The notes under the pieces were generated by a model. The model saw nothing but the letters and a program-made list of their open reading frames with translations, ran no database searches and had not been told where the DNA came from. A program made the position numbers and the translations under genes. Positions 37,746 to 54,572 of a stretch of DNA of 64,000 bases are shown here, in pieces. Source of the DNA: Arthrobacter gandavensis. GTDB lineage: Bacteria; Actinomycetota; Actinomycetes; Actinomycetales; Micrococcaceae. The stretch spans positions 248,001 to 312,000 of the forward strand of contig NZ_JADKYW010000003.1 in NCBI RefSeq assembly GCF_015355785.1, written 5' to 3'. Positions within the stretch are counted from its first letter, which is position 1, and each line of letters opens with the position of its first letter.

Positions 37746-37760
37746 AAGTACCGGCTACTT
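37746..37760. promoter_or_regulatory. dyad AAGTA-CCGGC-TACTT upstream of EPS operon
   Basis: A 15-bp inverted repeat with five-base arms, 79 bp upstream of the lipoprotein start. It has the same layout as the dyad at 39681-39695. TACTTGG (37798-37804) and TACTTGC (37819-37825) lie nearby. Candidate operator; the binding protein is not known. Confidence 0.5.
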
Positions 37761-37797
37761 CCTTAAATAGTTTTCACTCCGCATCATCGCGGGAAAT

Positions 37798-37804
37798 TAC
37801 TTGG
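37798..37804 (+). promoter_or_regulatory. TACTTGG half-site, EPS promoter region
   Basis: Exact TACTTGG in the 199-bp gap between the sugar transferase 3' end and the lipoprotein start; one of six exact copies in gaps of the EPS/LuxR region. Confidence 0.4.
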
Positions 37805-37866
37805 TTTCGTTTACGGTTTACTTGCCTTGATGCACGAGCCTGGAACTGCTCTCCGGGTTGACAGAT

Positions 37867-39612
37867 CTAATACGCGCCGACAGGCCGAAGAAGCATCTTT
37901 GCCGTGCGCCAGAGGATGATGAGGTCGCCGGCGACGGACCAGTTCTCCACGTAGTAGAGGTCCAGACGGACGCCGTCCTTCCAATTCAGTTCCGACCGGC
38001 CGTTGATCTGCCACATGCCGGTGAGTCCCGGCTTGATGTACAGCCGCCGATGCACCCGGCCCCCGTACCGGGCCACTTCGCGCGGGAGCGGAGGACGGGG
38101 ACCGACCAGGGACATATTCCCCAGGAAGACGTTCCAGAACTGGGGCAGCTCGTCGAGGGAGTACTTGCGCATCCAGCGGCCAACCTGGGTTACGCGCGGG
38201 TCGTGCTGCATCTTGAAGAGCAGTCCCGACCCCTCATTGCGGTCCAGCAGACCCGCAAGATCGTCCTCGGCGGTCTGCACCATCGAGCGAAATTTGAGCA
38301 TTTCAAAGACTTCCCCGCCGCGCCCCACCCGTTCCTGCCGGAACAGGACCGGCCCGGGGCTGTCCCGCCGAACCAAGAGAGCGAGCACTAGGAACACCGG
38401 CATCAGGGCCAGAAGCGCGAGGCCGGAGAGGACCACGTCCAGGGCGCGTTTGAGCAAATGTTTGCCGCCTGCGTACTGCGGCAGCTCAACGTGCATGAGC
38501 GGCAGGCCTTCCACCGGACGGGTATGGATGCGCGGTCCGGCGACGTTGGTTAGGCCAGTGGCCAGAATCAGCTGCACCGCCGATTCCTCAAGTTTCCAGC
38601 CCAGTTCCTGGACGTAGCGGCTGCCGCCCTTGGTAGGTCCCGCAACAATCACAGCATCGGCACCGAGGTTGGTGACCGCGTCAACCACGTGCTCGGAGTC
38701 CGATACCACCGGCAAGAGCTGTCCGTCGACCTCCAAACTGGATCTGAACTTGCCGGTGAGTGCCACGCCCATGACCTTGTACGGCGCACCGGCGTCGGTG
38801 CTGATTTGGTGGATTACATAGCGGACGTCCCTAGGACGGCCCAGCACCACGACCCGAGAGAGAAAGCGGCCACGCTGCCGTTGCCTACGCAACCACTGGC
38901 GGACGATCCAGCGTGAGCAGAGGAGACCTACCGTGCCAGCTGGCAAAACATAAGCGAAATATCCGCGTGCAATGTCAAGCTGCAGCACGAAGGATGCGAA
39001 AACCAGCCCTGCAGTGGCCGCGAAGGCAGCGTTGACTACCCGCTTGTATTCGTCCGTACCTATGCCGGCGATCCTGGGGTCACGGCTGCGGTAGGCGTGC
39101 AGCGCCAGCATCCATCCTGCCCCGAGCAGGAAAGACAGGACCCAGTACGTGGTGGCAAGCGTTCCGACGCGCAGCTCCGCCGTCTGCGTCCCAAACCTGG
39201 CAACCGTTCCTCCCAGCAGTGCCGAGCTGATAACGAGAGCGTCCGTGAAGATCAGGATCAGCGCGTAGCGGCGGTTCCGGAGCACAGCGGCTGTTCTGGA
39301 TGTTTGCGGCTTATTGGAAGACCTGGGAATGAAGGACGGGAACTCAAAAGGCTGCAGAGCATGGCTAACTGCCGGTCCTCCAACACCGGCTGCGGCGGGG
39401 ACTTGGGTGATGGCTGCCGAGGGAGTCGTCTGGAAGCCCCAGGGATGGACACCTTGGGCGGTCAGTACTTGCGGGTGCACCTCGGCGCTGCCATGACCCG
39501 GGGCAACTGTGCGGTGGCGGATGCTCGGCGGGTTCTGGAGCTGGTCAACAACATCGTTTGTTTCCCCCAGCAGGAACTTGCCCGGCAGCAGCCGGCGTGT
39601 ATTTGCGTTCAT
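37867..39612 (-). CDS. priming sugar transferase (polyprenyl glycosylphosphotransferase)
   Basis: 581-aa membrane enzyme that would load the first sugar phosphate on undecaprenyl phosphate. The N-terminal cytosolic extension (about 110 aa) is followed by four to five TM helices (about 115-250), a Rossmann-like CoA-binding-type domain (about 260-380), and a C-terminal bacterial sugar transferase domain (about 385-581) with KRALDVVLSGLALLALMPVF, LFRQERVGRGGEVFEMLKFR, SLDELPQFWNVFLGNMSLVG and KPGLTGMWQINGRS. The ATG at 39610-39612 has AAAGGA 13 bases upstream. Its 621-bp upstream gap holds a dyad and a TACTTGG motif. Confidence 0.92.
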   Translation of the reverse strand: MNANTRRLLPGKFLLGETNDVVDQLQNPPSIRHRTVAPGHGSAEVHPQVLTAQGVHPWGFQTTPSAAITQVPAAAGVGGPAVSHALQPFEFPSFIPRSSNKPQTSRTAAVLRNRRYALILIFTDALVISSALLGGTVARFGTQTAELRVGTLATTYWVLSFLLGAGWMLALHAYRSRDPRIAGIGTDEYKRVVNAAFAATAGLVFASFVLQLDIARGYFAYVLPAGTVGLLCSRWIVRQWLRRQRQRGRFLSRVVVLGRPRDVRYVIHQISTDAGAPYKVMGVALTGKFRSSLEVDGQLLPVVSDSEHVVDAVTNLGADAVIVAGPTKGGSRYVQELGWKLEESAVQLILATGLTNVAGPRIHTRPVEGLPLMHVELPQYAGGKHLLKRALDVVLSGLALLALMPVFLVLALLVRRDSPGPVLFRQERVGRGGEVFEMLKFRSMVQTAEDDLAGLLDRNEGSGLLFKMQHDPRVTQVGRWMRKYSLDELPQFWNVFLGNMSLVGPRPPLPREVARYGGRVHRRLYIKPGLTGMWQINGRSELNWKDGVRLDLYYVENWSVAGDLIILWRTAKMLLRPVGAY

Positions 39613-39680
39613 AGCGAGACCGTCATCCTTTGTGCAATGCCAACGGCCATCAATCTAGGAGTACCCGGCGGCAGCGGCAC

Positions 39681-39695
39681 GAGTACCCGGTACTC
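39681..39695. promoter_or_regulatory. dyad GAGTA-CCCGG-TACTC upstream of the sugar transferase
   Basis: A 15-bp inverted repeat centred 76 bp upstream of the sugar transferase start, with the same AGTA-N5-TACT layout as the dyad at 37746-37760. Candidate operator. Confidence 0.5.
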
Positions 39696-40153
39696 GCCTA
39701 AACGGCGCTTCTACGCCCTGGCTTGGTGCGCTACCTGCACGGCTACGTGGTCGCTGGCGGAGAACGGGCTCGCGTTTCCCTGCATATGAGAATGCCCGGC
39801 GCGACGGCCGGGCACTGTGGATGATGAAGCGGAGCACCGCTGCTATTTCACGATGAGGAGGAGCCGGCGACGGCTGGGGGGAAGCCTGGGTCTCAGCAGA
39901 CTTCGACGCCGCCGGCTCCGCTTCGGGAGGCCCGCGCACACATTGGGTACGGCCCTGTTTGCCTGGCGGGAAGCCGGACGTCCGGGTGAGGGCTGAGTCC
40001 CGGCGTACCTGGCAGTGCAGCTGTCTCCGCTGCTCCCGCACTGACAAGCCAAGTCAACGGCAGCCGATGACGGAAGGCACCAGTAGTCCACACCTCAAAA
40101 AGGCCGGACGCCACTCGAACTCAACGACCCACTACCCAGTGGCCCGCATGGGC

Positions 40154-40160
40154 TACTTGG
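40154..40160 (+). promoter_or_regulatory. TACTTGG half-site
   Basis: Exact TACTTGG 74 bp past the stop of the first LuxR gene (40234), inside the sugar transferase upstream gap. Confidence 0.35.
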
Positions 40161-40233
40161 ACCCGAACAGGCAGTCCCCGGCCCGTCCTCCGCGGGACCA
40201 GCGCGGAATGAGCCGTCGCGGCTGCGGAACTCC

Positions 40234-42957
40234 CTAGTGGACCTGCTGTCCAGCCTGGACTTTTGGCTCAGCCTCCAGCGCCTGGTAAACGCCCTCGAGC
40301 TCGGTCCGCTTGCTGATGCCGAGCTTGACGTAGATGCGGTAGACGTGTCCCTCGACCGTTCGTTGAGACAAGGTGAACTTTGCCGCGATGTCCTTCGTCC
40401 CAGCCCCCTCCAGCAGGAGTTCGACGATTTCGTGCTCGCGCCTGGTCAGCCTGACCTGGTGAACGCTGGGGCTGAGGTAGGACACGGTTACCCCTGCGAG
40501 TTCCTCGCGTCGCCGCCTCAACTGCTGGATCAGTGCGCGTTGGCGACGCAGATTGTTGTGCGCACCGTAGTAGCGGATGGCATGGCCGATGCATTCGACG
40601 GCGACCAGGTATTTCCTGCGGCCCACTGCCTCGTCCGCAGCAGCGACCATCCTTTCGGGATTATCTGCTGCGACCGCTGCGGCGTAGGCATGGAGGGCCG
40701 CCGCTTCCCCGCCTTCGAATCCGCTGGTAAGGTCCATGAGGCGTTTGGCCTGCTTCAGGTCACCGACCGCGAGCGCCAGTTCCAGAATGTCCTTTTCTGT
40801 TGCGAACTGTCCCAGGGCATGCGCTTCCTCAGCCAGCGACCGCACCTGGGACGGAGGCGGTTCTTCAATGCCCTGGGGAGCCATTGCCGCCGCCGCGAAG
40901 GCACACGCAGCCAGTTCGAGTCCTTTGGGACCGGAGTATCCCAAGCCTTTCAGCTCGCCGGCGAACCGGGCCGCCGGAGAGTCGTCCTCCACCACAACGG
41001 CGGTATACCCGGCGACAGCCAGTGCGTATGGGAGCAACCTCTCCGGGTCCCTGGACCGAAGGGCGCCAATAGCCGGCTTCAGCAGGCCAAGACCTTTGCG
41101 GAACCGTCCCTGGTGTATCTCCAGTACCCCTTCAAGCAGCCCAATACTGCCGCCGTACGCCAACAGGTTATGGGGCGTCGACCTCAGCTGCTTGGCGAGC
41201 AGTTCACCAAGATCTGCAAAGCTTCCCCCGTGGAGCAACGCGAAGGCATGCCTAATCCACACGGCACCCCTCACCCTGCTTTGCGTCCGTGGTTCAAGCT
41301 CCAATTCCCGCTCCGCATGCTCGGCCGCCTGCAGTGCCCTCCCTACGGCGCCGGCGGCGGTGTATGCCTCGCACACCAGCGAATAGCCCAATGCCCGCAG
41401 CTCGTGCTGTCCCGATGTCCTCCCCGGGTTCGAGGCGTCAGCGTCCAACAGATCACGGGTAGTGGCAGGGCCTTCCCCCGGAGTCAGCAGGTTGCCGTCC
41501 GCGATCCTCGCCCACAGCGCCAGGATGCTTTGTCCTGCCGCCACCCATCCGGCCCGTACATCCGCGGAATCCTTGAGCTGGGCTTCCCGTTCTGCCCATT
41601 TTCGGGCCAGGCCGCGAAGCCGCTCGCCGGCGGATTCCGAACAGGCGGCAAGCTGCGCCGAAGCCAGTACTGCGAGGTCCAGGGTTTCTGCGTCCGCGGC
41701 TGCACTCACGGCGTCTTCCAGACCTGCGCGCGCCTCAGCCATATTCCCAAGCGTCAGCTGTGCCACGGCCGCTTCGATGCGTGCCCGGGCAGCCAGGGGT
41801 CCGGGCTGAACCGCGTGGGCAAGCCGTAGAGCCAGTTCGCAGTCGCCGTCGGCGTTTGCCGAACGCGCGGCCTGCAGCAGTTCCGCATCCTCCGGCGCTT
41901 CACCGCAGTCAAGTGCCCACGCGGCGTGGAGAGCGATGTGTCCGAAGCCCCGACCTCCGCCCTGCGTGAGCTGCCGGCGGATCTCCATACTGCGCACCGG
42001 CGGCACCAGGGAGCGGATGGCGTAGGCATGGAGCGGCTGTGCCAGTTGCAGCTGCTCCGCAGCTTTCGGAGCCTGGGTAAGATATCCGTCGTCGACGAGG
42101 GCCTGCACGGACACCGGGTCCGCCACCGCTGTCAGGGCTGGACGGGGAAAGATGCCGGCCAGGGCGACTGCCTCCAGCACCGTGCGTTCGCCGGGCGTCC
42201 TGCTTGCCAGGAGGCGCTTGGCCAGGTCCTGGACTATGGGGTCCATCCCCGCGGGCAGGGTACGCAGATACCAGGAGCCGTTGTTCCGGAGCAGTTCCCC
42301 GCGCCTGCGAGCCCCGTCCAGCAGTGCCTTTGCATAATGCGGATTTCCACCGGAAACCTGAGTCAGCACCGCGCTGGAGGCCCCAAGCACCGTTCCGCCC
42401 AGCTCCTGGACGCACAGGCGGTGAATCGTTTCGTGTGTGAGGGGCTGGAGGTCCAGACGTGAAAGCAGGCCGTCCCGTGCCAGGGAGAGTAGTTCCTGGA
42501 TGTTCGTGCTGCGGGCGCGGGAGAGGATGAGCAGCCGCAGCTCACCGGACATCGCCAGCTGGACCAGCACGTGGCTGGACGCCTCGTCCAGGTGATGGGC
42601 ATCCTCCACCACCAGCAGCGCCTGGGCGTCACCGGCCTCGGCACGGACACGGAAGAACCGGCGGATGTTCCGGAGTACCGTGAGCGGAGAGTCCATATCT
42701 TCAGCCGCCGCCCGTTCCATGAAAGGTGTCAGTGCACCGTAGGGGATCCGCGCCAGCACCGGGCTGCTGTGGATCCGGTAAGGCGTCACAATGCCCTCCA
42801 GCCGGCGCAGCACCTCCTCCGCGAGTGCGCTCTTGCCCATCCCTTCCGGCGCCAGCACAATCGAACCCCGGAGCACCGGGGACAGCAGGTGATTCGAAAT
42901 CTGCTCGGCCTCGGCGCTCCTCAGGATGTTAGGCACCGCCCGTGGCTGCTGGTTCAT
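40234..42957 (-). CDS. LuxR-family regulator with STAND ATPase domain (R1)
   Basis: 907-aa large ATP-binding LuxR-type regulator (LAL/MalT-like). Walker A APEGMGKS is at about 36-43, Walker B LLVVEDAHHLDE near 114, followed by a helical TPR-like middle and a C-terminal LuxR helix-turn-helix (about 840-895) with LTRREHEIVELLLEGAGTKD and TLSQRTVEGHVYRIY. Such proteins bind a signal plus ATP and activate promoters as oligomers. The start overlaps the stop of R2 (ATGA), so translation is coupled. It is the last gene of the array. The signal and targets are unknown; EPS genes are the nearest candidates. Confidence 0.92.
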   Translation of the reverse strand: MNQQPRAVPNILRSAEAEQISNHLLSPVLRGSIVLAPEGMGKSALAEEVLRRLEGIVTPYRIHSSPVLARIPYGALTPFMERAAAEDMDSPLTVLRNIRRFFRVRAEAGDAQALLVVEDAHHLDEASSHVLVQLAMSGELRLLILSRARSTNIQELLSLARDGLLSRLDLQPLTHETIHRLCVQELGGTVLGASSAVLTQVSGGNPHYAKALLDGARRRGELLRNNGSWYLRTLPAGMDPIVQDLAKRLLASRTPGERTVLEAVALAGIFPRPALTAVADPVSVQALVDDGYLTQAPKAAEQLQLAQPLHAYAIRSLVPPVRSMEIRRQLTQGGGRGFGHIALHAAWALDCGEAPEDAELLQAARSANADGDCELALRLAHAVQPGPLAARARIEAAVAQLTLGNMAEARAGLEDAVSAAADAETLDLAVLASAQLAACSESAGERLRGLARKWAEREAQLKDSADVRAGWVAAGQSILALWARIADGNLLTPGEGPATTRDLLDADASNPGRTSGQHELRALGYSLVCEAYTAAGAVGRALQAAEHAERELELEPRTQSRVRGAVWIRHAFALLHGGSFADLGELLAKQLRSTPHNLLAYGGSIGLLEGVLEIHQGRFRKGLGLLKPAIGALRSRDPERLLPYALAVAGYTAVVVEDDSPAARFAGELKGLGYSGPKGLELAACAFAAAAMAPQGIEEPPPSQVRSLAEEAHALGQFATEKDILELALAVGDLKQAKRLMDLTSGFEGGEAAALHAYAAAVAADNPERMVAAADEAVGRRKYLVAVECIGHAIRYYGAHNNLRRQRALIQQLRRRREELAGVTVSYLSPSVHQVRLTRREHEIVELLLEGAGTKDIAAKFTLSQRTVEGHVYRIYVKLGISKRTELEGVYQALEAEPKVQAGQQVH

Positions 42958-45743
42958 CGCCGGGCCCCCTGCGTTGCGTTCGGCTGGCTGCCGCTGGTCA
43001 TCTGTCCGGCTGTCAGCAGTTTGGCTAATTCCCTTCGGCTTCCCACATGCAACTTTGAGTAGATCTGGTAAAGGTGCCCTTCGACAGTGCGTACTGAGAT
43101 GGAAAGTTCCGCCGCGATCATCTTGTTGCTGGTTCCAGCCGCCGCCTGCCTGGCGATTACCCGCTCACGCCCAGTCAGTCCGCGCAGGCAGTCCTCGACT
43201 TCGGCGTCGTTCTCCGATTCTCCGGACTGGGCCCGCCGGGTGCGGTGGATGAACCGGACTGTAGCCCGGTCTCCGGCCCCGGCGGCGATTTGCAGTGCGC
43301 GTTCCCCGGTCTCCCGGGACAGCAGTTCATGCCCAAGGGCTGCAGCGGCATCGGCCGCGCGCAGCAGCAGCTGCGGATCGCAGCTGGCCGCGCCCTTCGC
43401 GTAGTCCTCACACAGCCTGGCAAACCGTCCCTGCAGGCCCGATGCAGCATCCAGCAGCTGCTGTGCCTGGTCCCGGTCCCCCAGGCGGACGGCGCTGAGC
43501 AGGCTCAGCACGGCGTATGCACCGGCACCGCGGTCCTCATCCCGGACCGCCATGGCTGCCAGCGTTTCGCCTGCCTCCTCGGAACCCAGTAAATTCCGGG
43601 CCAGGACGGTGAAGTGCGCTGCGGTGCGCTGCAGCGCCCACGACGGCGTGACGGGAACTGAATCAGCCGTGCGAAGGTGCTCCTCGGCCAGCTGATGTTG
43701 GCCCTGCAGCGCGGCTGAATAGGCTGCGACTGCGCTGACCGTATGAAGGAGACCCCCGGGGTCAGAGATCGCCAGCTGCCTGGCGGCCGGGAGCAGCCGC
43801 GTGGTGGCAGCGGCCCCCCGTCCGGCGAAGGCGTGCAGGACACCCTCGCAGACCTCATGGAGGGTTCCGCCGATGCTGCCTGCTCCCTCGGTTACCGCTG
43901 CCCGGGCGAGGAACTCGCCCGCCGAGTCGAGGGCACCGGCGACCATCAGGACATGCAGTATCCGGGCCTGTGCCTGCGCGGCTTCCCCGGGGTCGAAATC
44001 CGGTTCCGGCGCGTCGGTAAGCAGTGGCCAGAGCGCTGATGCGAGCTCCAGGGCATCGGACTGACGGTCTGTCATGCCCCACCCAACACAGAGCCATGAA
44101 CCCACCAGGGTCCTGAACCCCCGGCCGTTTTCGTCCCCCCGGGCATAGACACCGGCGAGGAATGATGCCGCCTGCCCATACTGTCCGTGCTGGACCAGAC
44201 ACCGGGCCCGTGCCAGGACGAGCTCCCGCTCGAGCTGAGCGGACTCACCGCGGGCTAGTCCGTCCGCGGCGAGCGCGGCGAGGATCTCTCCAGCTTCTTC
44301 AAGACGGGCACCGTGGGCTTGGGCCGTGCACCCGCCCACGAACTGCTGCTCCGCCATCCTCCGGCAGCCGGCTTCGGCTTCGACGATCAGCAGGCGCACG
44401 GTTTCGGGAGAACGGATACCGGATTCGCCGAAGGCGCGGTGCCGGGCGACGACGTCGGAAGCTCCTGCGGCATCACCGCCTGCCAGGACAGCTCGGGCCA
44501 GTTCAAGCACAGCACACGGCGAAGATAAATAGTTGGGGTCTGCCGTGATGAACTCCTCGGCCGCACCCGGGTCCCCTTCGGCGTTCGCTGTTCGGCCGGC
44601 TGCCAGCGCGAGCTCCGCCGGTAGTTTGACGCCTGCGGACAGCAGCCACCTCGCCGCGTGTGCCGGCCATGACACCACGGGATCCGGCGGGAGTTTCTCC
44701 AGCAGCTCCCGGCGCCGTCCCGGGTCGATCTGGCCCAGCAGCACCCTCCCAAGACCGGAATCGACCAGGGACAGGGCAGGGACCGTCCTGTGCACAAGCT
44801 GCAACAGCCCGGATTCCTGCAGGGCATCCACCTGCCGGCTCTCCACCTGCTCGAGGACCCGGCCGAGCGGCAGTGCGCCTGCCAGTGCCAGCAGGTCCAG
44901 CAGGTCACGCTGGTCATCGGTTAGTCCCGCCAGTTTTGTGCCCATCACGGAGGCGAGCCGCGGGAAGGCACAGTCCTGTCCCCGGTCCAATACCCATACG
45001 CCGTCCACGGCGCGCACCCGGCCGCTCTCGCGATAGTCCGCCGCAGCGCAAAGCAGCAGGCTGGGATTGCCCCCGCTGATCCTGATCAGGTCCTCCGCAG
45101 CGGCCCGGCTTACCGGCCCGCGCAGTTCCGCTTCCAGCAGGTGGGCACATTCAGAGGGCAGCATGGGCTCCAGGTCCAGACGGCTAAGAAGTCCTTCGCG
45201 CCAAAGCCCCATAAACTCGGCCGGTGCGGCGCTGAAGTCGCGGAAGGCCGCGAACATGTGGGCCAGCCGGTTTGCCACCATCTGGCTGAGCACCATGGCA
45301 GAGAACTCGTCCAGTTCCTCTGCGTTGTCCACTGCCAGGATGATCTGCCGCCCCTGCGCCCGTTCACGGATCAGCTCACTAAGGCCCCGCAGTATGAGCA
45401 CGGGGTGGGAAACGGTCTCCGGATCGAGTTCGGACAGCAGGAACGTCAGGGCTCCGAAAGCCGTCCTCCCGGCGAACGCCGACCCCCGGACGTTCACGGT
45501 ATAGGCGTCCTGCCCGTACAGCTCCAGTACATGCCGCATGAGGGCGCTCTTACCGCTCCCGGCTTCGCCGATGATGAGGCACCCTGATGCGGGGGAATCC
45601 GGGTTCAGGCACTCGGCCAGGGACCGGACCAGGGCCGCACGGCCCAGGAACGGTGAGTCGTGTCCGTGCCCGACGGGGGCAGGAGTACTGCCGGTGGTCC
45701 GCGCCTCAGGTGAGCAGGCGCCGGACGAATGATGCTTCTCCAC
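42954..45743 (-). CDS. LuxR-family regulator with STAND ATPase domain (R2)
   Basis: 929-aa paralogue of its neighbours. Walker A GEAGSGKS is at about 59-66, Walker B IILAVDNAEELDE follows the same spacing, the helical middle is similar, and the C-terminal HTH has LTGRERVIARQAAAGTSNKM and SISVRTVEGHLYQIY. The GTG at 45741-45743 has GAAGAGG eight bases upstream; the frame is open to 45971, but those codons have no SD and would include the motif-rich gap. Four-base coupling links it to R1. The 178-bp upstream gap holds TACTCGG and TACTTGG sites. Confidence 0.85.
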   Translation of the reverse strand: MEKHHSSGACSPEARTTGSTPAPVGHGHDSPFLGRAALVRSLAECLNPDSPASGCLIIGEAGSGKSALMRHVLELYGQDAYTVNVRGSAFAGRTAFGALTFLLSELDPETVSHPVLILRGLSELIRERAQGRQIILAVDNAEELDEFSAMVLSQMVANRLAHMFAAFRDFSAAPAEFMGLWREGLLSRLDLEPMLPSECAHLLEAELRGPVSRAAAEDLIRISGGNPSLLLCAAADYRESGRVRAVDGVWVLDRGQDCAFPRLASVMGTKLAGLTDDQRDLLDLLALAGALPLGRVLEQVESRQVDALQESGLLQLVHRTVPALSLVDSGLGRVLLGQIDPGRRRELLEKLPPDPVVSWPAHAARWLLSAGVKLPAELALAAGRTANAEGDPGAAEEFITADPNYLSSPCAVLELARAVLAGGDAAGASDVVARHRAFGESGIRSPETVRLLIVEAEAGCRRMAEQQFVGGCTAQAHGARLEEAGEILAALAADGLARGESAQLERELVLARARCLVQHGQYGQAASFLAGVYARGDENGRGFRTLVGSWLCVGWGMTDRQSDALELASALWPLLTDAPEPDFDPGEAAQAQARILHVLMVAGALDSAGEFLARAAVTEGAGSIGGTLHEVCEGVLHAFAGRGAAATTRLLPAARQLAISDPGGLLHTVSAVAAYSAALQGQHQLAEEHLRTADSVPVTPSWALQRTAAHFTVLARNLLGSEEAGETLAAMAVRDEDRGAGAYAVLSLLSAVRLGDRDQAQQLLDAASGLQGRFARLCEDYAKGAASCDPQLLLRAADAAAALGHELLSRETGERALQIAAGAGDRATVRFIHRTRRAQSGESENDAEVEDCLRGLTGRERVIARQAAAGTSNKMIAAELSISVRTVEGHLYQIYSKLHVGSRRELAKLLTAGQMTSGSQPNATQGARR

Positions 45744-45856
45744 TGTGAGACCTCTTCCTGGCAAACCGTCCATGCCCGCGGCAGCAGGCGTTGAACACAC
45801 TAGGTAGGGGGCGGGGACACCGACCTGAGTAGCAATCACCAGTAATGAGCAGCACC

Positions 45857-45863
45857 TACTCGG
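45857..45863 (+). promoter_or_regulatory. TACTCGG variant site upstream of R2
   Basis: One-base variant of the recurrent motif, 33 bp from the exact copy at 45890 and about 115 bp upstream of the R2 start. Confidence 0.3.
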
Positions 45864-45889
45864 GTTACACCACTGTGATTCGGGATAGC

Positions 45890-45896
45890 TACTTGG
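45890..45896 (+). promoter_or_regulatory. TACTTGG half-site upstream of R2
   Basis: Exact copy about 150 bp upstream of the R2 GTG, in the gap between R3 and R2. Confidence 0.4.
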
Positions 45897-45921: not shown

Positions 45922-48618
45922 TTACTTGGAATACTGACTCTGCTGCCTGTTGCGGCGGCCTCCGCCGTCACCGAGCAGGCGCCTCAGTTCCGCCCGCCCG
46001 GAGACATGGAGCTTCAGGAAGATTCGTCCGAGGTGCCAGTCCACTGTCCGCGGCGACAGGTGCAGCTCAGTTCCCAGGCGGGCACTGCTTGCACCGGATG
46101 CGGCCCGGTGGGCCAGGTCCCGCTCAAAGTCCGAGAGGGTCTCCAGGCGGCTCTCGAGGCTGTTGGCGTCAGCCAGCATGCGGTAGCACTCGTTCGCCAC
46201 CATCCGCGCCTGCCGGCCCAGCTCCCGCTGGTTGGCTGTCTCAGCTGCGTCCTGCGCAGCCAGGGCAGCCCGATAACCGTGCAGGTAGAAGCCCCGCGCG
46301 AGCAGCGCATCAGCCGCGTCATAGAGATCCTGCGGTGTTTTCTCCACGAGCCCGGCCCCGAGGGTCTGCCACATGCGGGCCGACGTGCCGTGCCCGGCGG
46401 CTGCAGTGGTCTTCAGCATCGCAGCGGCCGATGCGTCTCCGGAGAGGGCTGCCGCTGACAGGCATAGAACTGCTGCGGGATAGTTGCCCCGGTCCGCAGC
46501 CCGGCGCCCCTGCGAGGCAAGCTCGGCGGACGGCTCTGCTCCGGGGCTGAAGCGAAGTGCCGCGGCCCGCTGGAAGTAGCGAGTTGCCGTGAGCACGTGT
46601 GAGGCGGGTGCAGCCTTGAAATCCGGGACGGCGGCGAGGCATTCAGACATCCGTTCCCAGTCGCCCCGCTCTGCGTAGCAGTAGCCCATGGCCGCGAGTG
46701 CGAGCGGCAGCAGCTCTCCCCGGTCGTCGACTTCGAGCTGGCGATGAGCGGGAATCAGGCAGTCCAGGGCAGCGTCGGACCTGCCGCACAGTGCGTGGAG
46801 CACGCCGGCCGGCAGCTCCGACCAGGCACTCAGATGGGTTTCCAGGTAACGGACTTTCCTGGCGTGCTCCAGCATTTCCAGTGCCCGCAGCGGTTCGGCA
46901 CACATGATGTAGGTGCACAGGATGCCGTTCAGGGTTTCGGCACCGGCGGCGAGTGGCAGCCCACGAGAGTCTTTCAGGCTCGCCCAGAGCTCCCCGGCCT
47001 CCAGCAGTGCTTCCTGCGTCCTGCCCTCCAAAGCCAGGAGCTGGCAGCGGCTGGCCCTGGCCGGCAGCTGGACGGCGGCAGGAACCGCCCAGTCAAGACA
47101 GAGCGTCCCGAGATCGCGCGGAGCGAGCGTCGGATCGGACTCAATCGCGGCAAGGGCGGCTCGGGCCGCCGTCACCTGCTGCAGGCATTCAGTTCGCTCA
47201 GGGTCAGGCCGGAGCTGCGCTGCGGCTTCTGCCAGCTCCAGCGCTTCCGGCGGCGACACTCGGGGCGAGGGCACCGCACGGGCCACCATGGCCAGCTCCA
47301 GCAGGGCCGGTACCGTGATTGAGGGATCGTCCAGCTCAAGGAGTTGCTCCAGCTCTGCCAGGGCCGACTCCATCTCATGCAGAGCACGAAGTGCGCGGGC
47401 GCGTTGGAGCTGAAGCCGGGGGTGCGGTCCCGGAGCCTGGACAGCTTCAGCGATCCTCAGGGCGGCGGTGGGCTCCCCGTCGCAGTTAGCGGCTGCGCAG
47501 GCACGGGCGGCGAATTCGGCACCGACGGGACTGCCGGCGGCGGCAGCCCACAAAGCGTAGGCCCTGGCAGGACGGTCCGGCCAGGTTTCAGGATCCAGGC
47601 CTGCCGCACGCAGCTCCTGCCAAAGTTCGAAGAAGTGGCCGATGGGTACCCGCTCGGCAACCAGGCGGGCGTAGAGCGGGTCCCGAAGCGATACCGATCC
47701 CTCCCCATAGCTGACGGTCAGCACGCCCCGTTCTTCCAGGGCTTCGACGCTTTGGGCATCCGCCACATCCAGCAGCGCACGCAGGGGTATCCCGGGGCAC
47801 AGAGACACCAAGTCCACGATCAGCTGCTCCGGGACGCTCAGCCGGCGGTACCAGGTTCCAAGCCAGTCCGAGATTTCCCCGCTGAAGGAGAGCGGACCGG
47901 CGAGGGTCCAGACTCCGCTCCGCTCCCGTAACCGCCCGGCGTTCATCTGGTCTCGGCACAGCAGCGTAGCAAAAAGCGGATTTCCCCGCGCTTGGCGCCA
48001 GACGGCGTGCGCCGCCAGCGCTGACAGCCTACCGCCGGTGATCCCTTCCATAAGGGCAACTGAATTCTTCGGGTCCAGCGGACTTAGGTCAATCCTGCGG
48101 ATCATTCCCTCGGACCATAGCCGCACCAGTTCTTCTCCGCAGCTCAGCACGTCCGGAGTGGTGGCCAGCATGGCGGCAGCGGACTGGCGCGTCAGCTGGA
48201 CGAGGGCGTTCTGGCTCAGTGCATCAAGTTCATGGAGGTTATCCACTACCAGCAGGGTCCGCCGTCCGCCCGCACGTGCCGCCAGGTGTTCCTGCAGCGC
48301 CCGCAGGACGTGCACCGGATTATCCAGCGGAGTTTCCGGCATCTCGCTGAGCACCCAGGCCAGCGCCCCGTAGGCTGTTCCGGCGGAGAAGCTGGTGCCG
48401 CGCACATATACTATGTGGAAGTCCTGCCGGGTTGCCGTGGCTGCGGCATTGGCCAGGGCCGTCTTCCCGATTCCCGCGGGGCCGACGATCACAGCGCCGC
48501 CGTTGGACTTGATTGCGGAGACTGCCGCGCTTAGCTCCTCCGACCGTCCGGCCAGCCGTGGCTGCGCCCTGACGGCCGCGTGTTCGCGACAGAGCGGTGG
48601 GGGTGGTGCAACGCGCAT
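45922..48618 (-). CDS. LuxR-family regulator with STAND ATPase domain (R3)
   Basis: 898-aa paralogue. Walker A GPAGIGKT is at about 46-53, Walker B TLLVVDNLHELDALS, then a helical repeat middle. The C-terminal HTH belongs to a second class: HLSPRTVDWHLGRIFLKLHV, sharing its recognition helix with R5 rather than with R1/R2/R4. ATG 48616-48618 has CAGGGA six bases upstream and is preferred over TTG 48636. The stop codon overlaps a TACTTGG on the other strand (45923-45929). Confidence 0.9.
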   Translation of the reverse strand: MRVAPPPPLCREHAAVRAQPRLAGRSEELSAAVSAIKSNGGAVIVGPAGIGKTALANAAATATRQDFHIVYVRGTSFSAGTAYGALAWVLSEMPETPLDNPVHVLRALQEHLAARAGGRRTLLVVDNLHELDALSQNALVQLTRQSAAAMLATTPDVLSCGEELVRLWSEGMIRRIDLSPLDPKNSVALMEGITGGRLSALAAHAVWRQARGNPLFATLLCRDQMNAGRLRERSGVWTLAGPLSFSGEISDWLGTWYRRLSVPEQLIVDLVSLCPGIPLRALLDVADAQSVEALEERGVLTVSYGEGSVSLRDPLYARLVAERVPIGHFFELWQELRAAGLDPETWPDRPARAYALWAAAAGSPVGAEFAARACAAANCDGEPTAALRIAEAVQAPGPHPRLQLQRARALRALHEMESALAELEQLLELDDPSITVPALLELAMVARAVPSPRVSPPEALELAEAAAQLRPDPERTECLQQVTAARAALAAIESDPTLAPRDLGTLCLDWAVPAAVQLPARASRCQLLALEGRTQEALLEAGELWASLKDSRGLPLAAGAETLNGILCTYIMCAEPLRALEMLEHARKVRYLETHLSAWSELPAGVLHALCGRSDAALDCLIPAHRQLEVDDRGELLPLALAAMGYCYAERGDWERMSECLAAVPDFKAAPASHVLTATRYFQRAAALRFSPGAEPSAELASQGRRAADRGNYPAAVLCLSAAALSGDASAAAMLKTTAAAGHGTSARMWQTLGAGLVEKTPQDLYDAADALLARGFYLHGYRAALAAQDAAETANQRELGRQARMVANECYRMLADANSLESRLETLSDFERDLAHRAASGASSARLGTELHLSPRTVDWHLGRIFLKLHVSGRAELRRLLGDGGGRRNRQQSQYSK
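45923..45929 (+). promoter_or_regulatory. TACTTGG overlapping the R3 stop codon
   Basis: Exact motif copy on the plus strand over the last R3 codons, 27 bp from the copy at 45890. It may be part of the R2 regulatory region, or chance. Confidence 0.25.
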
Positions 48619-48747
48619 GTAAATTCCCTGCCTCAAGGTGTGGGCCCGAGACAGAGCGTAGATTCAGGCAATCCCGCCGCCAACACGTAGTTGGTACTGG
48701 CTTTGGACCACTTGCTGCCAGCGTCCAGGCTGCCTGAGAGCAGTGAC

Positions 48748-48754
48748 TACTTGG
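48748..48754 (+). promoter_or_regulatory. TACTTGG half-site upstream of R3
   Basis: Exact copy about 130 bp upstream of the R3 ATG, in the 182-bp gap between R4 and R3. Confidence 0.4.
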
Positions 48755-48800
48755 GAGGAGCGGACACACGATGCCAGGCTGGACCGGCGACTCGCGGAAA

Positions 48801-51482
48801 CTACTCGCCCATCAGCTCGGCGGTGAGCTCCTCACGCCTGCTGATGCCGAGTTTCTCGAAGATGCGGTAGATGTGTCCCTCCACGGTCCGGACCGAGAGG
48901 AAGAGCTGTCCGGCGATCTCCGCATTGCGGCAGCCCCTCGCAACCAGCCTGGCGACGTCCTTCTCGCGGCGCGTTAGGGACGGCGGCGCTGGGCTGCGTC
49001 CGGGCTCGGATCCTGCCAGGCGTTTGCCGATCACGCGCTGGACCCGCTGAATTTGGTTGCGGTCACCCCCGGCCTTGGCGATACGGAGTGCCTCCTGCAG
49101 CGCAAGGACCCCTAGGGCATTTGCCTCTGCGTCCGCCGGCTCGGAGGCGAAGCGGAGGAGCGCCGATACGTCCTGGTCCAGGACCGACCGGGCAAACAGC
49201 TTCACCGCGCGTCCCCTCGGGCCCTGGATGTCTTCGGAGAGCTTCAGCAGGCGGTTCATGACGGTAGGGTCACCTGCCCGCATGCTCAGGCAGCGCAGTT
49301 CGAATTCGGCTGCAGGCAGGCCCTGTTCCTCTGCCTGCTCTCCTGCTTCACGCAGTGCTGCCAGCACTTTTGCATCTCCGGTTCTGGCATAGCCGGCCGC
49401 AAGCCGGTTGCCCCTCGCGATGAACCGGGTGCTGAGGGTTCCCCGCGAAGTGATCCTGTCACAGTCGGCCAGCAGCTCGTCCGCTCGCGACAGGTCTCCT
49501 GCACGCGCGGCCAGCTGGGCAGCTATCGACAGGGCCACGGGCAGGTTGCCGTCCGGGTCGTGGGTACGCATCCCCTCGATGGCAGCCATCAGCTTCGGCC
49601 GGGCCGCTTCCATGTTCCCGCGTCTCAGCTCCATGACGGCAAGGCACATATCCACCGTGCCGCCCACCCTCAGCGAACTCCGCGACACCGCCAGCAGGTC
49701 CTCGTGAACTGTGCTGAGGACCTCGTCCCAGTAACCAGACCACAGCAGCGCAGACAGGTGCCGGTGCAGGACGAACTGATAGTAGGTCAGGAACCGGTGT
49801 TCGCTGTGGGCTACTATTCCCAGCGCCTCCCGGGTGAGCTGCACCGCACTTTCCGCACGGCCGCTGCAGGAGAGGATTTCGCCCAGGATCGTAAGGGATA
49901 CCATCACCGCTTCAGCGTCCTGCGCCTGCCTGGCCTCGGCGAGCAGCTCCCTGACGGATGCTTCCTTCGCCCTGTGGTTGCCCGCGGCGACTTCTACCAG
50001 CGCCGACAGGAGGGATGCTCCGCGCCGTGATGAGTCCAGGTCCGCCCTCAGCTCCGCGTCAAGGGTACCGGAGGCCTCCGCCGCCGCCTCGATGCGCTGT
50101 ATCGCAGCCTCCCAGTCGGCGCGTGCTTCGTGGAGGCCGTCCACCTCGCCAGTTAGTCTTTGCAGCAGCTGCACGCGCAGCAGGGTTCCAAGTTTCGCGG
50201 TCGTCAGGTCCGCCGCGGTTTCGACGGTTCCGGTCACGAGTTCCAACGCAGTATTGAAGTTTGCGCGGTTATAGTGGGCACGGGCCATCTGGATCCTGGC
50301 GCCAGGGAGCAGGGCAGGGTCTTTGATTTCGCCGGCGGCGCGGAGCGCGAAATCGCTGTCGAAGAAGTTGTTGGCCATGTATGCCGCCCGCAGCAGCTGC
50401 CCATCCGGAACCTCGGCTCCGCAGTCCAGCGACCAGGCGACGCTTCGCAGCAGTCCGTCCATTGACTCCGTGTCGTCCGGCATGACCTCCTGGACCCGCC
50501 GGCGCAGCCGGGCGCTTCGAGCCGCAGGAACCATGTGGCGCACCAGCTGGCCGTACAACGGGTGCCGCGGCCGCAGCAGCCTGTTCCCTTCATCCTCCAC
50601 GCTGACCAGGTTTGCGGCAGTCAGGGCGTCAACTGAGCGGTGGAGACCAAGTTTGAAGGCGACAGCCACCGGCACCGGCTCTGCGAGCGCGATGATCTCC
50701 ATCGCTTCCCGCTCGTCGGTGGAGAGCCCTGAGAGCTGCACCTTGAGCAGGTCAGCCAACCGCCCCTGGGGCGGATCGGTGCTGACTCCCATCAGCCACA
50801 CACCGTGGCGTTCGGTCAGCGCCCCTGTCCTGCGGTTTTCGGCGATCAGGGCCAGCGTGAACATGGGGTTCCCGCCGCTGCGGATGGCGAGTTCGGCGCT
50901 GGTGGTAGTAAGCACCGGCCCGCCGAGCACCTGGGTACAGAGTTCATGGACCTGCGCTTCGGTGAACGGCTGGAGATGGTGCCGGGAGATGGCACCGCTC
51001 CATACCTGCGCCGGAATCCCGGCCGGTATTTCAGTGATGCTCCTGGTCAGGGCCAGCATCCGCACCCGTCCGGAGGCCATCAGCTGGGAAAGCAGGTCGG
51101 CGCTGGCTTCGTCCAGCGCGTGTGCGTCGTCGACGACCAGCAGCGGGGTGGCACCGGTGTCCTGTACCGCTGCCGGACGCACTCTTCCCAGCAGCGCCCG
51201 CATCACTGCCAGGGGTGAGTCCGTGTCATTCGCGGACAGCACGGGCAGCAACGGCGCCAGGGCACCAAACGGGATGCCGGTCAGTGCTGAACTGGCATGG
51301 ATCCGGAATACCGGCATCTCGTGTTCGAGTTCACGGATGACGACGCCGGCAAGGGCGCTCTTGCCCATGCCTGCCTCGGCCACCAGCAGGGCGCCGCTCA
51401 GTTCAGCGGAGCGCACGTCGGCCAGGACTGCCTGGGTTTCCTTCTCCCGGCCTACCAGCTGCTGTGTCGCAAAGCCCTGCAT
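48801..51482 (-). CDS. LuxR-family regulator with STAND ATPase domain (R4)
   Basis: 893-aa paralogue, closest by eye to R1 in the ATPase part: VFRIHASSALTGIPFGALAP in R4 matches YRIHSSPVLARIPYGALTP in R1. Walker A AEAGMGKS is at about 35-42, Walker B LLVVDDAHALDEAS, and the HTH is LTRREKDVARLVARGCRNAE with FLSVRTVEGHIYRIF. The ATG at 51480-51482 has GGGGGAAG upstream, and the gene starts inside the end of R5 (31-bp overlap), so the two must share a transcript. Confidence 0.92.
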   Translation of the reverse strand: MQGFATQQLVGREKETQAVLADVRSAELSGALLVAEAGMGKSALAGVVIRELEHEMPVFRIHASSALTGIPFGALAPLLPVLSANDTDSPLAVMRALLGRVRPAAVQDTGATPLLVVDDAHALDEASADLLSQLMASGRVRMLALTRSITEIPAGIPAQVWSGAISRHHLQPFTEAQVHELCTQVLGGPVLTTTSAELAIRSGGNPMFTLALIAENRRTGALTERHGVWLMGVSTDPPQGRLADLLKVQLSGLSTDEREAMEIIALAEPVPVAVAFKLGLHRSVDALTAANLVSVEDEGNRLLRPRHPLYGQLVRHMVPAARSARLRRRVQEVMPDDTESMDGLLRSVAWSLDCGAEVPDGQLLRAAYMANNFFDSDFALRAAGEIKDPALLPGARIQMARAHYNRANFNTALELVTGTVETAADLTTAKLGTLLRVQLLQRLTGEVDGLHEARADWEAAIQRIEAAAEASGTLDAELRADLDSSRRGASLLSALVEVAAGNHRAKEASVRELLAEARQAQDAEAVMVSLTILGEILSCSGRAESAVQLTREALGIVAHSEHRFLTYYQFVLHRHLSALLWSGYWDEVLSTVHEDLLAVSRSSLRVGGTVDMCLAVMELRRGNMEAARPKLMAAIEGMRTHDPDGNLPVALSIAAQLAARAGDLSRADELLADCDRITSRGTLSTRFIARGNRLAAGYARTGDAKVLAALREAGEQAEEQGLPAAEFELRCLSMRAGDPTVMNRLLKLSEDIQGPRGRAVKLFARSVLDQDVSALLRFASEPADAEANALGVLALQEALRIAKAGGDRNQIQRVQRVIGKRLAGSEPGRSPAPPSLTRREKDVARLVARGCRNAEIAGQLFLSVRTVEGHIYRIFEKLGISRREELTAELMGE

Positions 51483-54103
51483 TCTTCCCCCAAACCTGAT
51501 TCTGCGGAGCGGAGAACATCCCGCAACTCAGTTCTTCCCGACACGTGCAGCTTGCGAAACAGTTTGTTTAGGTGCCAGTCCACGGTGCGCGGCGACAGGT
51601 GCAGCTCTTCCGCGATATGGTTCCTGGACGCTGGCGCGGCTGCCAGCTTCACCAGGTGCGTTTCGAAGTCACTGAGTCCTGTCAGCATGTATTGAATGCT
51701 GTTTTCCCGCAGGAGCCGGCGGTAGGCCGCGTTCTCCACTGCGGCGGCCCGGCGGGCGATGCTGCCCCCGCCGTCGGCAGCCATGCTCCGGACCAGGCCT
51801 GCGGCGCGGTGCGCCAGCAGGTGGTGGCCCAGTTGCGCAGCCCCTTCTGCGGCTTGGAGCAGGGCCCATGGATCACTGCCCAGCAGCCCCCGGGCGTAGG
51901 ATCCCAAGGTCTCGGCCCAGCGTCCCGTGGCGGTGGACGCGAGCCGCGCCAGGTTCGCCGCAGCGGTGAGGTCTCCGGCCGAAGCAGCAGCTTCGTAGCA
52001 GCCCAGGGCAAAGGAAATGTTTCCGCGGGTTTCTGCCTCCTCCGCCATCTGCACCAGGCCGCGCGCCGCGGCATCTCTCTCCCGGCCCTGCAGGGCCAGT
52101 ATCCGGAAGAACTCCGTCACCCGCGAGGCATGCCAGGACGGGCGGTTGCGGAACCGGGGAGCGAGCTCCTGGTACACGGAGGCGCGTGCGGTATTTCCAC
52201 TCAGTCCGTGGGCGTAGGACAGAAGTGCCGCGGCCAGGGGCAGCAGGTCCTGGGCATCCCGGAACCGCAGCTGGCTCACCGCCGGTTCAAGCGCCTCCAC
52301 CGCGGCATCGGACTCGCCTGCAGCCGCGCGGACCACGCCCCAAACCAGCTCACCGGCCGTACCGTAGTCGGCTTCCAGGGCACCGTCAGTGCTTTCGCGG
52401 ACAAAGCGCAGTGCGCGCTTCAAGTCACCGGCAGCATAGAACGCGTAGAAAAGGCGGTTCAGGATGATGCTCCGGTCGGGCGCCGGAAAAGGTGCACGCA
52501 GCAGTTCCCGGTGTTCCTCCACCAGCTGCAGCGCTGCTCCTGCGCTACCGGTAACGGCCAGGGCTTCCGCAGCTGCCGCGACCGCGCGGGCGCGCGTCCT
52601 GTCCGCTATGCCACGGCGGACGGCGAGTGCGGAAAGGGACTGGACCACCGCGGCGTAATTTCCCTCGGCCAGCTGGAGTTCCGCCTTGGCGTAATCGATG
52701 TCGGCAGCGGTTTCCGGGCTGTCGGCAACACCGGTAGGCGGGCCGAGCCTGTCCAGGACCAAGGCCGGGGCGTCCGCCTTTGAGAGGCTGCGCAGCAGCG
52801 CCGCCTTCAGGAGCATGATCGCGACCCAGGTCTTCCGGTCCCCCGCATCGAGTCCGGATTCGGCAGCCGCCAGGACGCCCAGGGCTTTCTGGTCCTCTCC
52901 CAGTGCCATCAGTGCCCGGATTTCCTCCAGGACCAGGCCGTCCTCGCGGGTTCCAGGAGCGGCCGATCCAACGAAGGCCAGCGCCAGCGAGGGCCTGCCG
53001 GAATCGTTTGCGTAGGCGGCAGCCTCCTTGAGGAGCCGAGGCCCCGGGTCCGCCTCGCAGTCCAGCGACCAGGCGACTAAACCGGCCAGCGCGGCCGGGG
53101 CGAGGCTCCCGGGGTCCTGGAGGACATCGGTCAGCTCCTTCCACCGCTCATGGCTGCGCCCCAGCGGAACATTTGCGGCCACCACCGAGGCGAAGAACGG
53201 GTCGGACAGCACCACGGCCGGCAGCGTTCCGCGCTTCAGGGTCACCAGCCCCTCTTCTTCCAGCGCATCCAGGGTTTCCGCGGGCACCAGCTCGCACGCT
53301 GCGGCCAGGGGCAGCGGGCTAACCCGGGAGAGGACTTCGACCAGTTTCCGGCAATCTGCAGGAAGCCTGGACAACTGTTTATCAAAGAGCTCGGCAACGG
53401 CTCCCGTGTGCACGTATGTCCCGGCTCGGACCCACGTCTGTTCAGAGAGAACCAGGCGGCCCTGCCTCACCTGTTCCGCCGTCATCAGGACGGTGAAATG
53501 CGGATTGCCGCGGGTCTCCGCCCACATTGTCCGGGCTGCGGGTTCAGAAACCGGCCCGCTCAGGAAGCCTGCCATCAACGTCCGGGTTTCGGTCTGGCTG
53601 AGGGGCTCCACGTCTATTCTGTCCAGGTGCCCGTCCGCCCACAGCGACAGGATTTCCGGTTCCGCCTGGACCAGGTCCGTTGCCGTCGCCGCGAGCGTGA
53701 CTTCCCCGCCCCGCACCAGCTGTGCCACGACCTGGACGGAGAGGTCATCGAGTTCATCCACGTCATCCACCACGAGCAGCAGCGGCAGGCCCGCTGCCTT
53801 CGAACGCAGGAGACGGCGGACTTCCTGGAGAGCGCTCACGGGATTCAGTCCACCGGCCAGCGGCATCTCGCTGATCAGCGGCGCCAGCGCCCCATAGGGA
53901 GTGCGCCGTGAAACTTCCGTCCCGTACAGCGCTTCGATCCGGTATCCCCGGGCACGCTCCGTCAGCGCCTGAGCAAGCGCACTCTTCCCTATCCCCTGTG
54001 GCCCGACGATGAGGGCCCCCCGTCCTTCGGCCAGGGCGGAGTCCATGCGTCCAAGAAGAGCGTCCCGGCCTACGAGTCCCGCCAATGGCCCGGGCAGCCT
54101 CAT
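51452..54103 (-). CDS. LuxR-family regulator with STAND ATPase domain (R5)
   Basis: 883-aa paralogue and first gene of the array. Walker A GPQGIGKS is at about 34-41, Walker B LLLVVDDVDELDDLS, and the HTH has HLSPRTVDWHLNKLFRKLHV, the same class as R3. The ATG at 54101-54103 has no SD but overlaps the stop of a short SD-led frame (54100-54165), so its translation is probably coupled to it. Its 3' end overlaps R4 by 31 bp. Confidence 0.9.
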   Translation of the reverse strand: MRLPGPLAGLVGRDALLGRMDSALAEGRGALIVGPQGIGKSALAQALTERARGYRIEALYGTEVSRRTPYGALAPLISEMPLAGGLNPVSALQEVRRLLRSKAAGLPLLLVVDDVDELDDLSVQVVAQLVRGGEVTLAATATDLVQAEPEILSLWADGHLDRIDVEPLSQTETRTLMAGFLSGPVSEPAARTMWAETRGNPHFTVLMTAEQVRQGRLVLSEQTWVRAGTYVHTGAVAELFDKQLSRLPADCRKLVEVLSRVSPLPLAAACELVPAETLDALEEEGLVTLKRGTLPAVVLSDPFFASVVAANVPLGRSHERWKELTDVLQDPGSLAPAALAGLVAWSLDCEADPGPRLLKEAAAYANDSGRPSLALAFVGSAAPGTREDGLVLEEIRALMALGEDQKALGVLAAAESGLDAGDRKTWVAIMLLKAALLRSLSKADAPALVLDRLGPPTGVADSPETAADIDYAKAELQLAEGNYAAVVQSLSALAVRRGIADRTRARAVAAAAEALAVTGSAGAALQLVEEHRELLRAPFPAPDRSIILNRLFYAFYAAGDLKRALRFVRESTDGALEADYGTAGELVWGVVRAAAGESDAAVEALEPAVSQLRFRDAQDLLPLAAALLSYAHGLSGNTARASVYQELAPRFRNRPSWHASRVTEFFRILALQGRERDAAARGLVQMAEEAETRGNISFALGCYEAAASAGDLTAAANLARLASTATGRWAETLGSYARGLLGSDPWALLQAAEGAAQLGHHLLAHRAAGLVRSMAADGGGSIARRAAAVENAAYRRLLRENSIQYMLTGLSDFETHLVKLAAAPASRNHIAEELHLSPRTVDWHLNKLFRKLHVSGRTELRDVLRSAESGLGEECRALRHSSW

Positions 54104-54165
54104 GTTGCGCCGGCGGGACGCTGATGCGGACCGCCGGCCGGCCCGTACGAAGCAGGCCCTCCCAT
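54100..54165 (-). CDS. 21-aa leader peptide coupled to R5 (candidate)
   Basis: A 21-codon frame beginning MGGPASYGPAGGPHQ starts at ATG 54163-54165 behind GGGGGGAGAACT, a strong SD, and ends in TGA overlapping the R5 ATG (ATGA). R5 has no SD of its own. The frame is open further upstream, but only this ATG has an SD. It may be a translational coupler or a regulatory leader; expression is unproven. Confidence 0.45.
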   Translation of the reverse strand: MGGPASYGPAGGPHQRPAGAT

Positions 54166-54400
54166 AGTTCTCCCCCCAGATCCCCGATCAATTGCATGGT
54201 CGGTTCGCTCAAAGCTGCGCGACAGATCAAACCACTGCCGAAAGAGTACGCTCCAACGGCGCCCATAGGAAGCTATCCGAACACAGGAATTTGGGCCGGG
54301 AACCGTGGAGCGGCTGTCCGGAGCATTCTTGGGTTTTGGGGGTCGGCATTTGACGCTGGGCGGTATGCCCAAAAGTGGGGGAAATGGAGAAACTGAAAGG

Positions 54401-54453
54401 GACCGGCGCCGGGATGGGGGTGGCCCAGTCTCGGAGGCCTCCCGACGCCGGCC
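54401..54453 (-). terminator. likely terminator of the glmU-prs-rplY-pth unit
   Basis: GACCGGCGCCGGGA (54401-54414) pairs with TCCCGACGCCGGCC (54440-54453), 12 of 14 pairs. On the minus strand it is followed by TCCCTTTCAGTTTCTCC, a T-rich run, 167 bp past the pth stop. Confidence 0.55.
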
Positions 54454-54565
54454 CCGCTTCAGGAGCCCGAAGGCTACCGCCAGTCTAGGCCCGGCGCCGG
54501 GACCAAACAATGCTTGTGTGGGTGACCGCGAGCACGGGTTCTATACCTAAATATTGAGCGGAGCC

Positions 54566-54572
54566 TACTTGG
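54566..54572 (+). promoter_or_regulatory. TACTTGG half-site upstream of R5
   Basis: Exact copy in the gap between pth and the R5 leader, about 460 bp upstream of the R5 ATG. Confidence 0.35.

Follow-up and report, generated by a model that had tools for sequence, protein, structure and literature searches.

LAL regulators of the MalT type, which combine an N-terminal AAA/STAND ATPase with a C-terminal GerE helix-turn-helix domain, are numerous in actinomycetes; to our knowledge few of them have known operators, and the signals that they sense are mostly open. Here we analyse a 64,000-nt stretch of Arthrobacter gandavensis (contig NZ_JADKYW010000003.1, positions 248,001 to 312,000; hereafter the window, G000:C6:248001-312000 of the 3.37-Mb genome), whose minus strand carries pth, five LuxR-type regulators (R1-R5), a wbaP-like gene, u233 and more exopolysaccharide (EPS) genes. 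R1-R5 share the MalT/LAL architecture. Unlike the described MalT/LAL systems, they stand as five in a chain beside EPS genes and are accompanied by a palindromic site, AGTA-N5-TACT. As a feature of the sequence this site is solid, and it is likely to be that of a LuxR-type activator.

The RcsA-RcsB family is likewise of the GerE type, and its box differs from the site described here. In the available portion of PMC4125116, RcsA-RcsB is a heterodimer acting on capsule promoters; the proteins and the phylum differ from those of our locus, for which a heterodimer is purely hypothetical. The same portion of that source describes the BldM and BldM-WhiI boxes of Streptomyces, which exist in homodimer and heterodimer versions and are, as here, actinomycete palindromes of similar length, but their sequence is TCACcCgnncGgGTGA rather than CGAGTA-N5-TACTCG and they are bound by response regulators, not LALs (PMC4125116). 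For the SARP-LALs PimR and PnR2, heptameric direct repeats are proposed as binding sites in the accessible part of PMC11784345. Among the matches listed from the open-access literature, nothing evidently concerns this locus, motif or RNA. The EAR RNA of the Bacillus eps operon is a structured RNA within an EPS locus; the RNA described below differs in that one copy, RNA-A, adjoins pth and in that its loop is complementary to start sites. The locus combines a defined operator with exopolysaccharide as a visible output, and other genera have smaller arrays; this makes a LAL binding rule directly testable, and the RNA layer, if true, would be a structured RNA regulator of actinomycete EPS genes with no Rfam family and a simple pairing rule.

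In our view the motif is probably the operator of a LuxR (GerE-type) activator that would act on its own locus from a dyad near -43, with R4-R5 as the candidate binder. The spacing of the half-sites carries much of this argument. All gaps between pth and wbaP were taken from 30 sequence sets (28 of the genus, with G021 as two, plus G032 and G035) and from the window, each stretch extending 150 nt into the called gene that follows. These stretches total 72.6 kb, and the coding parts of the same genes, 366.9 kb, served for comparison. When AGTA-Nx-TACT was counted for x = 0-30, N5 occurred 26 times in gaps and once in coding sequence, the inverted repeat with fixed half-site spacing that is looked for in a LuxR box. 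Further peaks stood at N25 (22 vs 1), N26 (6 vs 0) and N27 (11 vs 2), with seven N12 cases in gaps and none in coding sequence, and every other spacing gave 0-2 in gaps. TACTCGTG was found 40 times in gaps against once in coding sequence, and CCAAGTAG 26 times against none. The window itself holds only two exact AGTA-N5-TACT dyads, where 0.05 are expected; these are the two 15-bp inverted repeats that a preliminary description of this DNA had correctly placed at 37746 and 39681. Its distance of about 75-80 bp to the EPS units holds for u233 (79 nt) and not for wbaP (69 nt). The dyads and related sites are:

37746..37760, minus strand: u233 operator dyad, AAGTA-GCCGG-TACTT
39681..39695, minus strand: wbaP operator dyad, GAGTA-CCGGG-TACTC, then GTG
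48684..48699, minus strand: R3 proximal site, CAGTA-CCAAC-TACGTG
45820..45844, minus strand: R4 proximal sites, TACTGGTG and TACTCAGG
40078..40085, minus strand: TACTGGTG of the putative RNA-B promoter
37798..37804, minus strand: distal half-site CCAAGTA, u233
40154..40160, minus strand: distal half-site CCAAGTA, upstream of RNA-B
45857..45863, minus strand: half-site CCGAGTA, R4
45890..45896, minus strand: distal half-site CCAAGTA, R4
45923..45929, minus strand: distal half-site CCAAGTA, R4, overlapping the R3 stop codon
48748..48754, minus strand: distal half-site CCAAGTA, R3
54566..54572, minus strand: CCAAGTA immediately downstream of pth, not conserved

The heptamer had been described as TACTTGG on the plus strand at 37798, 40154, 45890, 45923, 48748 and 54566, with TACTCGG at 45857, and all of these positions are right; since the genes lie on the minus strand, TACTTGG reads CCAAGTA towards each gene. 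Three copies on the minus strand (20327, 21595 and 30542) fall outside the region then described, and the whole window contains nine where 2.12 are expected, a number reached in none of 100 shuffles. The copy at 45923 is the one that was said to overlap a stop codon, and it stands apart from the five gap copies. These five compare with a mean of 0.082 and a maximum of 2 in 500 dinucleotide shuffles of the five gaps (1,697 nt), in line with the earlier estimate of under one copy by chance; the gap bounds were kept as they had been given, except that the R3 gap was extended to the likelier start at 48618. CCAAGTA is the sole 7-mer common to all five gaps. No 7-mer was so shared in any of the 500 shuffles, the best reaching four gaps in 10 of them.

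Across the genus the locus was taken from 27 of the 28 congeners found (G027 left out), and the sites at R3, R4, wbaP and u233 recur in many, not all, of them. CCAAGTA is present in 8 of 23 R3, 18 of 32 R4 and 10 of 28 wbaP gaps, and TACT[CG]GTG or TACTCGGGTG in 1 of 23, 26 of 32 and 21 of 28, respectively; some rows counted as R4 gaps are R2-R3 gaps (G018, G020). CCAAGTA was seen in only one of 27 R1 gaps and in none of 26 R2 or 27 R5 gaps. The copy at 54566 is rejected on this ground as an R1 operator and is probably not functional. Density was also examined genome-wide: CCAAGTAG has 28 copies in the 3.37 Mb, four of them within the 17-kb locus. A crude caller of open reading frames (ORFs) placed 22 of the other 24, 12 in ORFs and 10 in gaps, two of the latter in one identical sequence on small contigs; of the remaining two, one lies in a gap and one in an ORF. 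With 12 of the 22 placed copies in ORFs, CCAAGTAG was dropped as the mark of a genome-wide regulon. The idea that the motifs are half-sites of a shared operator, which the LuxR array itself might own, draws support from the spacing peaks, the promoter geometry and conservation across genera, with the roles redistributed: the core is the dyad with TACTCGTG, CCAAGTA would be an upstream half-site, and the 54566 copy falls away.

The promoter geometry was derived from an alignment of 83 distinct sites, anchored at TACT[CG]G[GT] (TAC[TC] for other genera), in which a few apparent chance matches in coding sequence were kept. The consensus reads CGAGTA-N5-TACTCGTG, followed 28 nt on by a TAgnCT -10 element. 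TACTCGTG occupies positions 0 to 7 and the -10 begins at +28 (T 0.76, A 0.64, C 0.59, T 0.75), while the left half gAGTa stands at -10 to -6 (g 0.43, A 0.55, G 0.77, T 0.75, a 0.49); in many individual sites this half is degenerate. As the -10 is fixed, and taking the start 12 nt after its first base, the dyad would be centred at about -43 from the inferred start, close to the position near -42 on which LuxR-type regulators centre as class II activators. The -10-like elements of the window are:

39652..39657, minus strand: wbaP, TAGATT, 28 nt after the T of TACT
37716..37721, minus strand: u233, TAAGTT, putative assignment
48655..48660, minus strand: R3, TACGCT, putative assignment
45797..45802, minus strand: R4, TAGTGT, putative assignment

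The fixed distance to the -10 and the strong conservation of TACTCGTG could also be read as TACTCGTG-N20-TAGnCT, the promoter of an alternative sigma factor with no activator dyad. We consider this improbable, because the spacer between TACTCG and the -10 is 22 nt, which is long for a -35, and because the inverted AGTA partner has a sharp spacing peak of its own and the distal half-sites peak at 25-27. The 83-site consensus has no standard -35, so the promoters look activator-dependent. This speaks against repression, in which bound LAL proteins would cover the -35 and keep the promoters shut until a ligand releases them: the dyad does overlap the -35 region, and still such a mode of action appears very unlikely. 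In the favoured scheme, that of an activator, a dimer would bind CGAGTA-N5-TACTCG about 43 bp upstream of the inferred start, overlapping the -35 region, and would recruit RNA polymerase to promoters that lack a standard -35 and have a TAgnCT -10. Some two helical turns upstream, another AGTA half-site (CCAAGTAG or GAGTAG) may give a second contact. The promoters served would be those of R3, R4-R5, wbaP and the EPS unit headed by u233; many genomes would add that of RNA-B.

Candidates for the binder are at hand in the five GerE proteins encoded beside the dyad, among which the overlapping and coupled pair R4-R5 is proposed. The genes concerned are:

51452..54103, minus strand: R1, LAL regulator, AAA_16 + GerE
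48801..51482, minus strand: R2, LAL regulator
45922..48618, minus strand: R3, LAL regulator, start ATG 48618 judged by eye
42954..45743, minus strand: R4, LAL regulator, start GTG 45743 judged by eye
40234..42957, minus strand: R5, LAL regulator, 4-nt overlap with R4
37867..39612, minus strand: wbaP-like EPS polyprenyl glycosylphosphotransferase
36966..37667, minus strand: u233, which heads the second EPS unit, without Pfam or NCBIfam match

All five regulators are about 900 aa long and contain GerE and AAA/STAND ATPase domains, as LAL (MalT-like) proteins do, the AAA_16 match of R5 (30.8) being under the cut-off of 32.6. R2, the only one of the five scanned against NCBIfam, is not a MalT equivalog (38.1 bits against a cut-off of 537) and matches the MalT and AbsR2 models weakly, far under cut-off; R4 as query gave no solved structure at E 1e-5. 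The six named records among the close homologues of R2 are all Arthrobacter, the closest being A. citreus (88% identity) and A. koreensis (87%). Five recognition helices in a row occur in 26 of the 28 genus genomes, this one included (G013 has two helices and G021 is split). They follow the pattern D-E-D-E-E (DWH or EGH) in 15 genomes, whereas 11 have an R1 helix of neither class. In other genera, six of the eight loci with exactly two EGH helices have one of LYQ and one of LYR type, like R4 and R5, which points to R4-R5 as the binder; the R2 helix is also of LYR type.

A real operator could instead belong to a regulator, GerE-type or other, that is encoded outside the array and co-regulates array and EPS genes. 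A 16-bp palindrome of like size, the BldM box, is used by GerE-type response regulators according to the available portion of PMC4125116, and sites of the present kind occur outside the array too. Set against this are their concentration and their reach. AGTA-N5-TACTCG has 82 places and 66 distinct sites in 29 whole genomes, and the array stretches hold 29 of the 66, in 22 of the 29 genomes, in about 0.9% of the sequence (assuming 3.6 Mb per genome); sites also precede RNA-B in some other genera. We regard an outside regulator as unlikely. Two further dyads of the A. gandavensis genome were rejected as operators: C6:192019 lies in an ORF, and C6:233523, viewed by eye only, adjoins a terminator-like inverted repeat in an intergenic gap at a distance of 54 kb to the array.

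Several observations weigh against an activator from within the array. The consensus of the 83 sites shows only a weak left half, and the spacing counts are not independent events because related genomes repeat the same site. Coverage by the strict dyad is partial, with 8 of 23 R3, 4 of 32 R4 and 14 of 28 wbaP gaps, and it is absent from all R1, R2 and R5 gaps (27, 26 and 27 examined). Outside the array lie 37 of the 66 genome-wide dyads, ten of which are one sequence, AGTAAGCTGTACTCG, that may be coding. The site is missing upstream of 12 of 21 RNA-B copies of other genera and of all 33 RNA-A copies. Finally, only 8 of 20 loci in other genera, some of them cut by stretch limits, have exactly two EGH helices, and the rest have none, one, three, four or a different type; our confidence is slightly lowered because the helix-pair argument rests on these eight.

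The gene order pth-R1-R2-R3-R4-R5-wbaP is broadly conserved among congeners. With the crude ORF caller, R3 is unlabelled in G016, G010, G012, G018 and G020, and wbaP is uncalled in G019 and G020; the frames of G013 are broken and the locus of G021 lies on two contigs. Other genera have smaller arrays, with three array genes in G032 and two in G035. In four congeners, G022, G016, G023 and G017 (L045-L047, L050-L058), R2 and R3 are 18-27 kb apart. G025 and G010 retain the u233 dyad, G012 has a comparable one, and G035 and L180 have none. In G010, R2 is only 50% identical to the window protein and u233 82%, which suggests a joint transfer of the EPS unit and its operator.

The locus also carries two homologous structured RNAs, and boxes complementary to their loop precede several of its start codons:

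39858..39921, minus strand: RNA-B, structured RNA, UGAGACC in the loop and an unpaired CCCCCC
54396..54459, minus strand: RNA-A, structured homologue of RNA-B, downstream of pth
45747..45752, minus strand: GGTCTC box before the R4 start (GTG 45743)
39616..39621, minus strand: GGTCTC box before the wbaP start
37671..37676, minus strand: GGTCTC box before the u233 start

As a structured element the RNA is solid. RNA-B folds into a 13-bp outer stem, an inner stem and an 8-nt loop with UGAGACC, leaving the C-run single-stranded. Its fold has a z of -4.08, with one of 200 shuffles as good, and that of RNA-A a z of -4.46, with none of 200. Paired columns covary: among 15 distinct RNA-B sequences, 8 of 21 pairs (one of the 21 wrongly set on gap columns) changed on both sides, as in 3 of 500 shuffles, and the covariation score was reached in none of 500. 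Of the cells 97.3% pair, against at most 59.3% in slid controls, while further pair types were at chance level (174 of 500 shuffles). For RNA-A 3 of 21 pairs changed on both sides (27 of 500 shuffles), with a covariation score again reached in none of 500. The RNA-B covariance model matches 58 of 148 relatives, all of the same bacterial family and including 29 of 29 genus genomes; the RNA-A model matches 57 of 148, 56 in the family and one weakly outside it, and each model matches the other's RNA weakly. Membership of an Rfam family was rejected, as all listed matches were far under the gathering scores. A conserved peptide was likewise discarded as an explanation of RNA-B: in 16 distinct sequences, all from the genus, the variable columns at codon positions 1, 2 and 3 are 12/22, 8/21 and 4/21, so substitutions avoid third positions, the reverse of protein constraint, and the RNA rather than a peptide seems conserved. 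In G022 (A. citreus-like) a second RNA-B copy adjoins the first (C5:306974-307037 and 307357-307420).

The genus sets, counted with G032, contain 29 RNA-B copies. A dyad or TACTCGTG lies at most 400 nt upstream of 20 of them, and six of the other nine (G025, G016, G017, G024, G009, G000) have a TACTGGTG variant in the same gap. In other genera this holds for 9 of 21 copies, one with only 166 nt, and among 4000 random stretches for 2.2%.

GGTCTC is the reverse complement of the GAGAC(C/U) loop of RNA-A/RNA-B and, in the R4 and wbaP regions, the commonest hexamer 2-4 nt before ATG or GTG; 27 of 30 sets have it at R4 and 12 of 28 at wbaP, four of the latter at a leader ORF (G022, G023, G017, G009). 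It is also the top hexamer when both regions are required. The box occurs before R4-like ORFs of 907 and 899 aa in two other genera (L175:6909, L183:2416) and before u233 in G000 and G010, not in G025; it was found at 1 of 27 R1, 0 of 26 R2, 0 of 22 R3 and 1 of 27 R5 starts. At 14 loci an ORF opened by GGTCTC and ATG runs through RNA-B, always in the frame GAG|ACC, where one of the other two frames would meet a stop in the loop. Ten of these ORFs have a stop overlapping or within a base of the wbaP start, three are fused to wbaP and one (L181) does neither. Some boxes upstream of RNA-B do not fit. L186 has one whose ORF stops short of the RNA, as does one of the three boxes in L175, and at L178 and at the second L175 copy no start codon is near the box. 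Genome-wide, GGTCTC plus a start has 76 matches against 43 for the reversed control; such combinations are not rare, so the box alone defines no regulon.

The duplex ranking over 98 starts gives only moderate support to pairing. With the loop segment wbaP ranked 1, R1 2, R4 4 and u233 7, but R3 73, while for the first four scrambled controls ranked 41-71 and reversed ones 18-77. With the C-run segment R2 ranked 1, R5 11 and R1 35, the G-run of R1 being outside its 45-nt stretch. A run of at least five G is found in 25 of 27 R1 regions, counted at any distance from the start, and inspection by eye shows one at nearly all R2 starts; these runs match the C-run of the RNA. R1 is preceded by a leader ORF of 21 codons (54100-54165, minus strand) with a GGGGGG stretch before it and a TGA that overlaps the R1 ATG (ATGA). 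Compensatory loop-target change was looked for in L192 and L193, and none was convincing.

A new regulatory RNA family, so far in the bacterial family of Arthrobacter, that forms a two-layer circuit with the LAL regulators is a tentative proposal which we hold with some reserve. The LAL pair would activate RNA and EPS genes through AGTA-N5-TACT. As a second, hypothetical layer of control, the RNA-B loop UGAGACC would pair with the GGUCUC boxes found at the R4 and u233 starts and at that of wbaP or of the leader ORF coupled to it, and the C-run would match the G-run ribosome sites of the R1 leader ORF and R2. In loci whose leader ORF contains the RNA, ribosomes passing the hairpin would unfold it, tying wbaP expression to translation of the leader.

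Elsewhere in the window, a long terminator-like hairpin, to which microRNA models match far under threshold, lies at 56038-56116 on the minus strand between the genes at 56123-57106 and 55211-55807.

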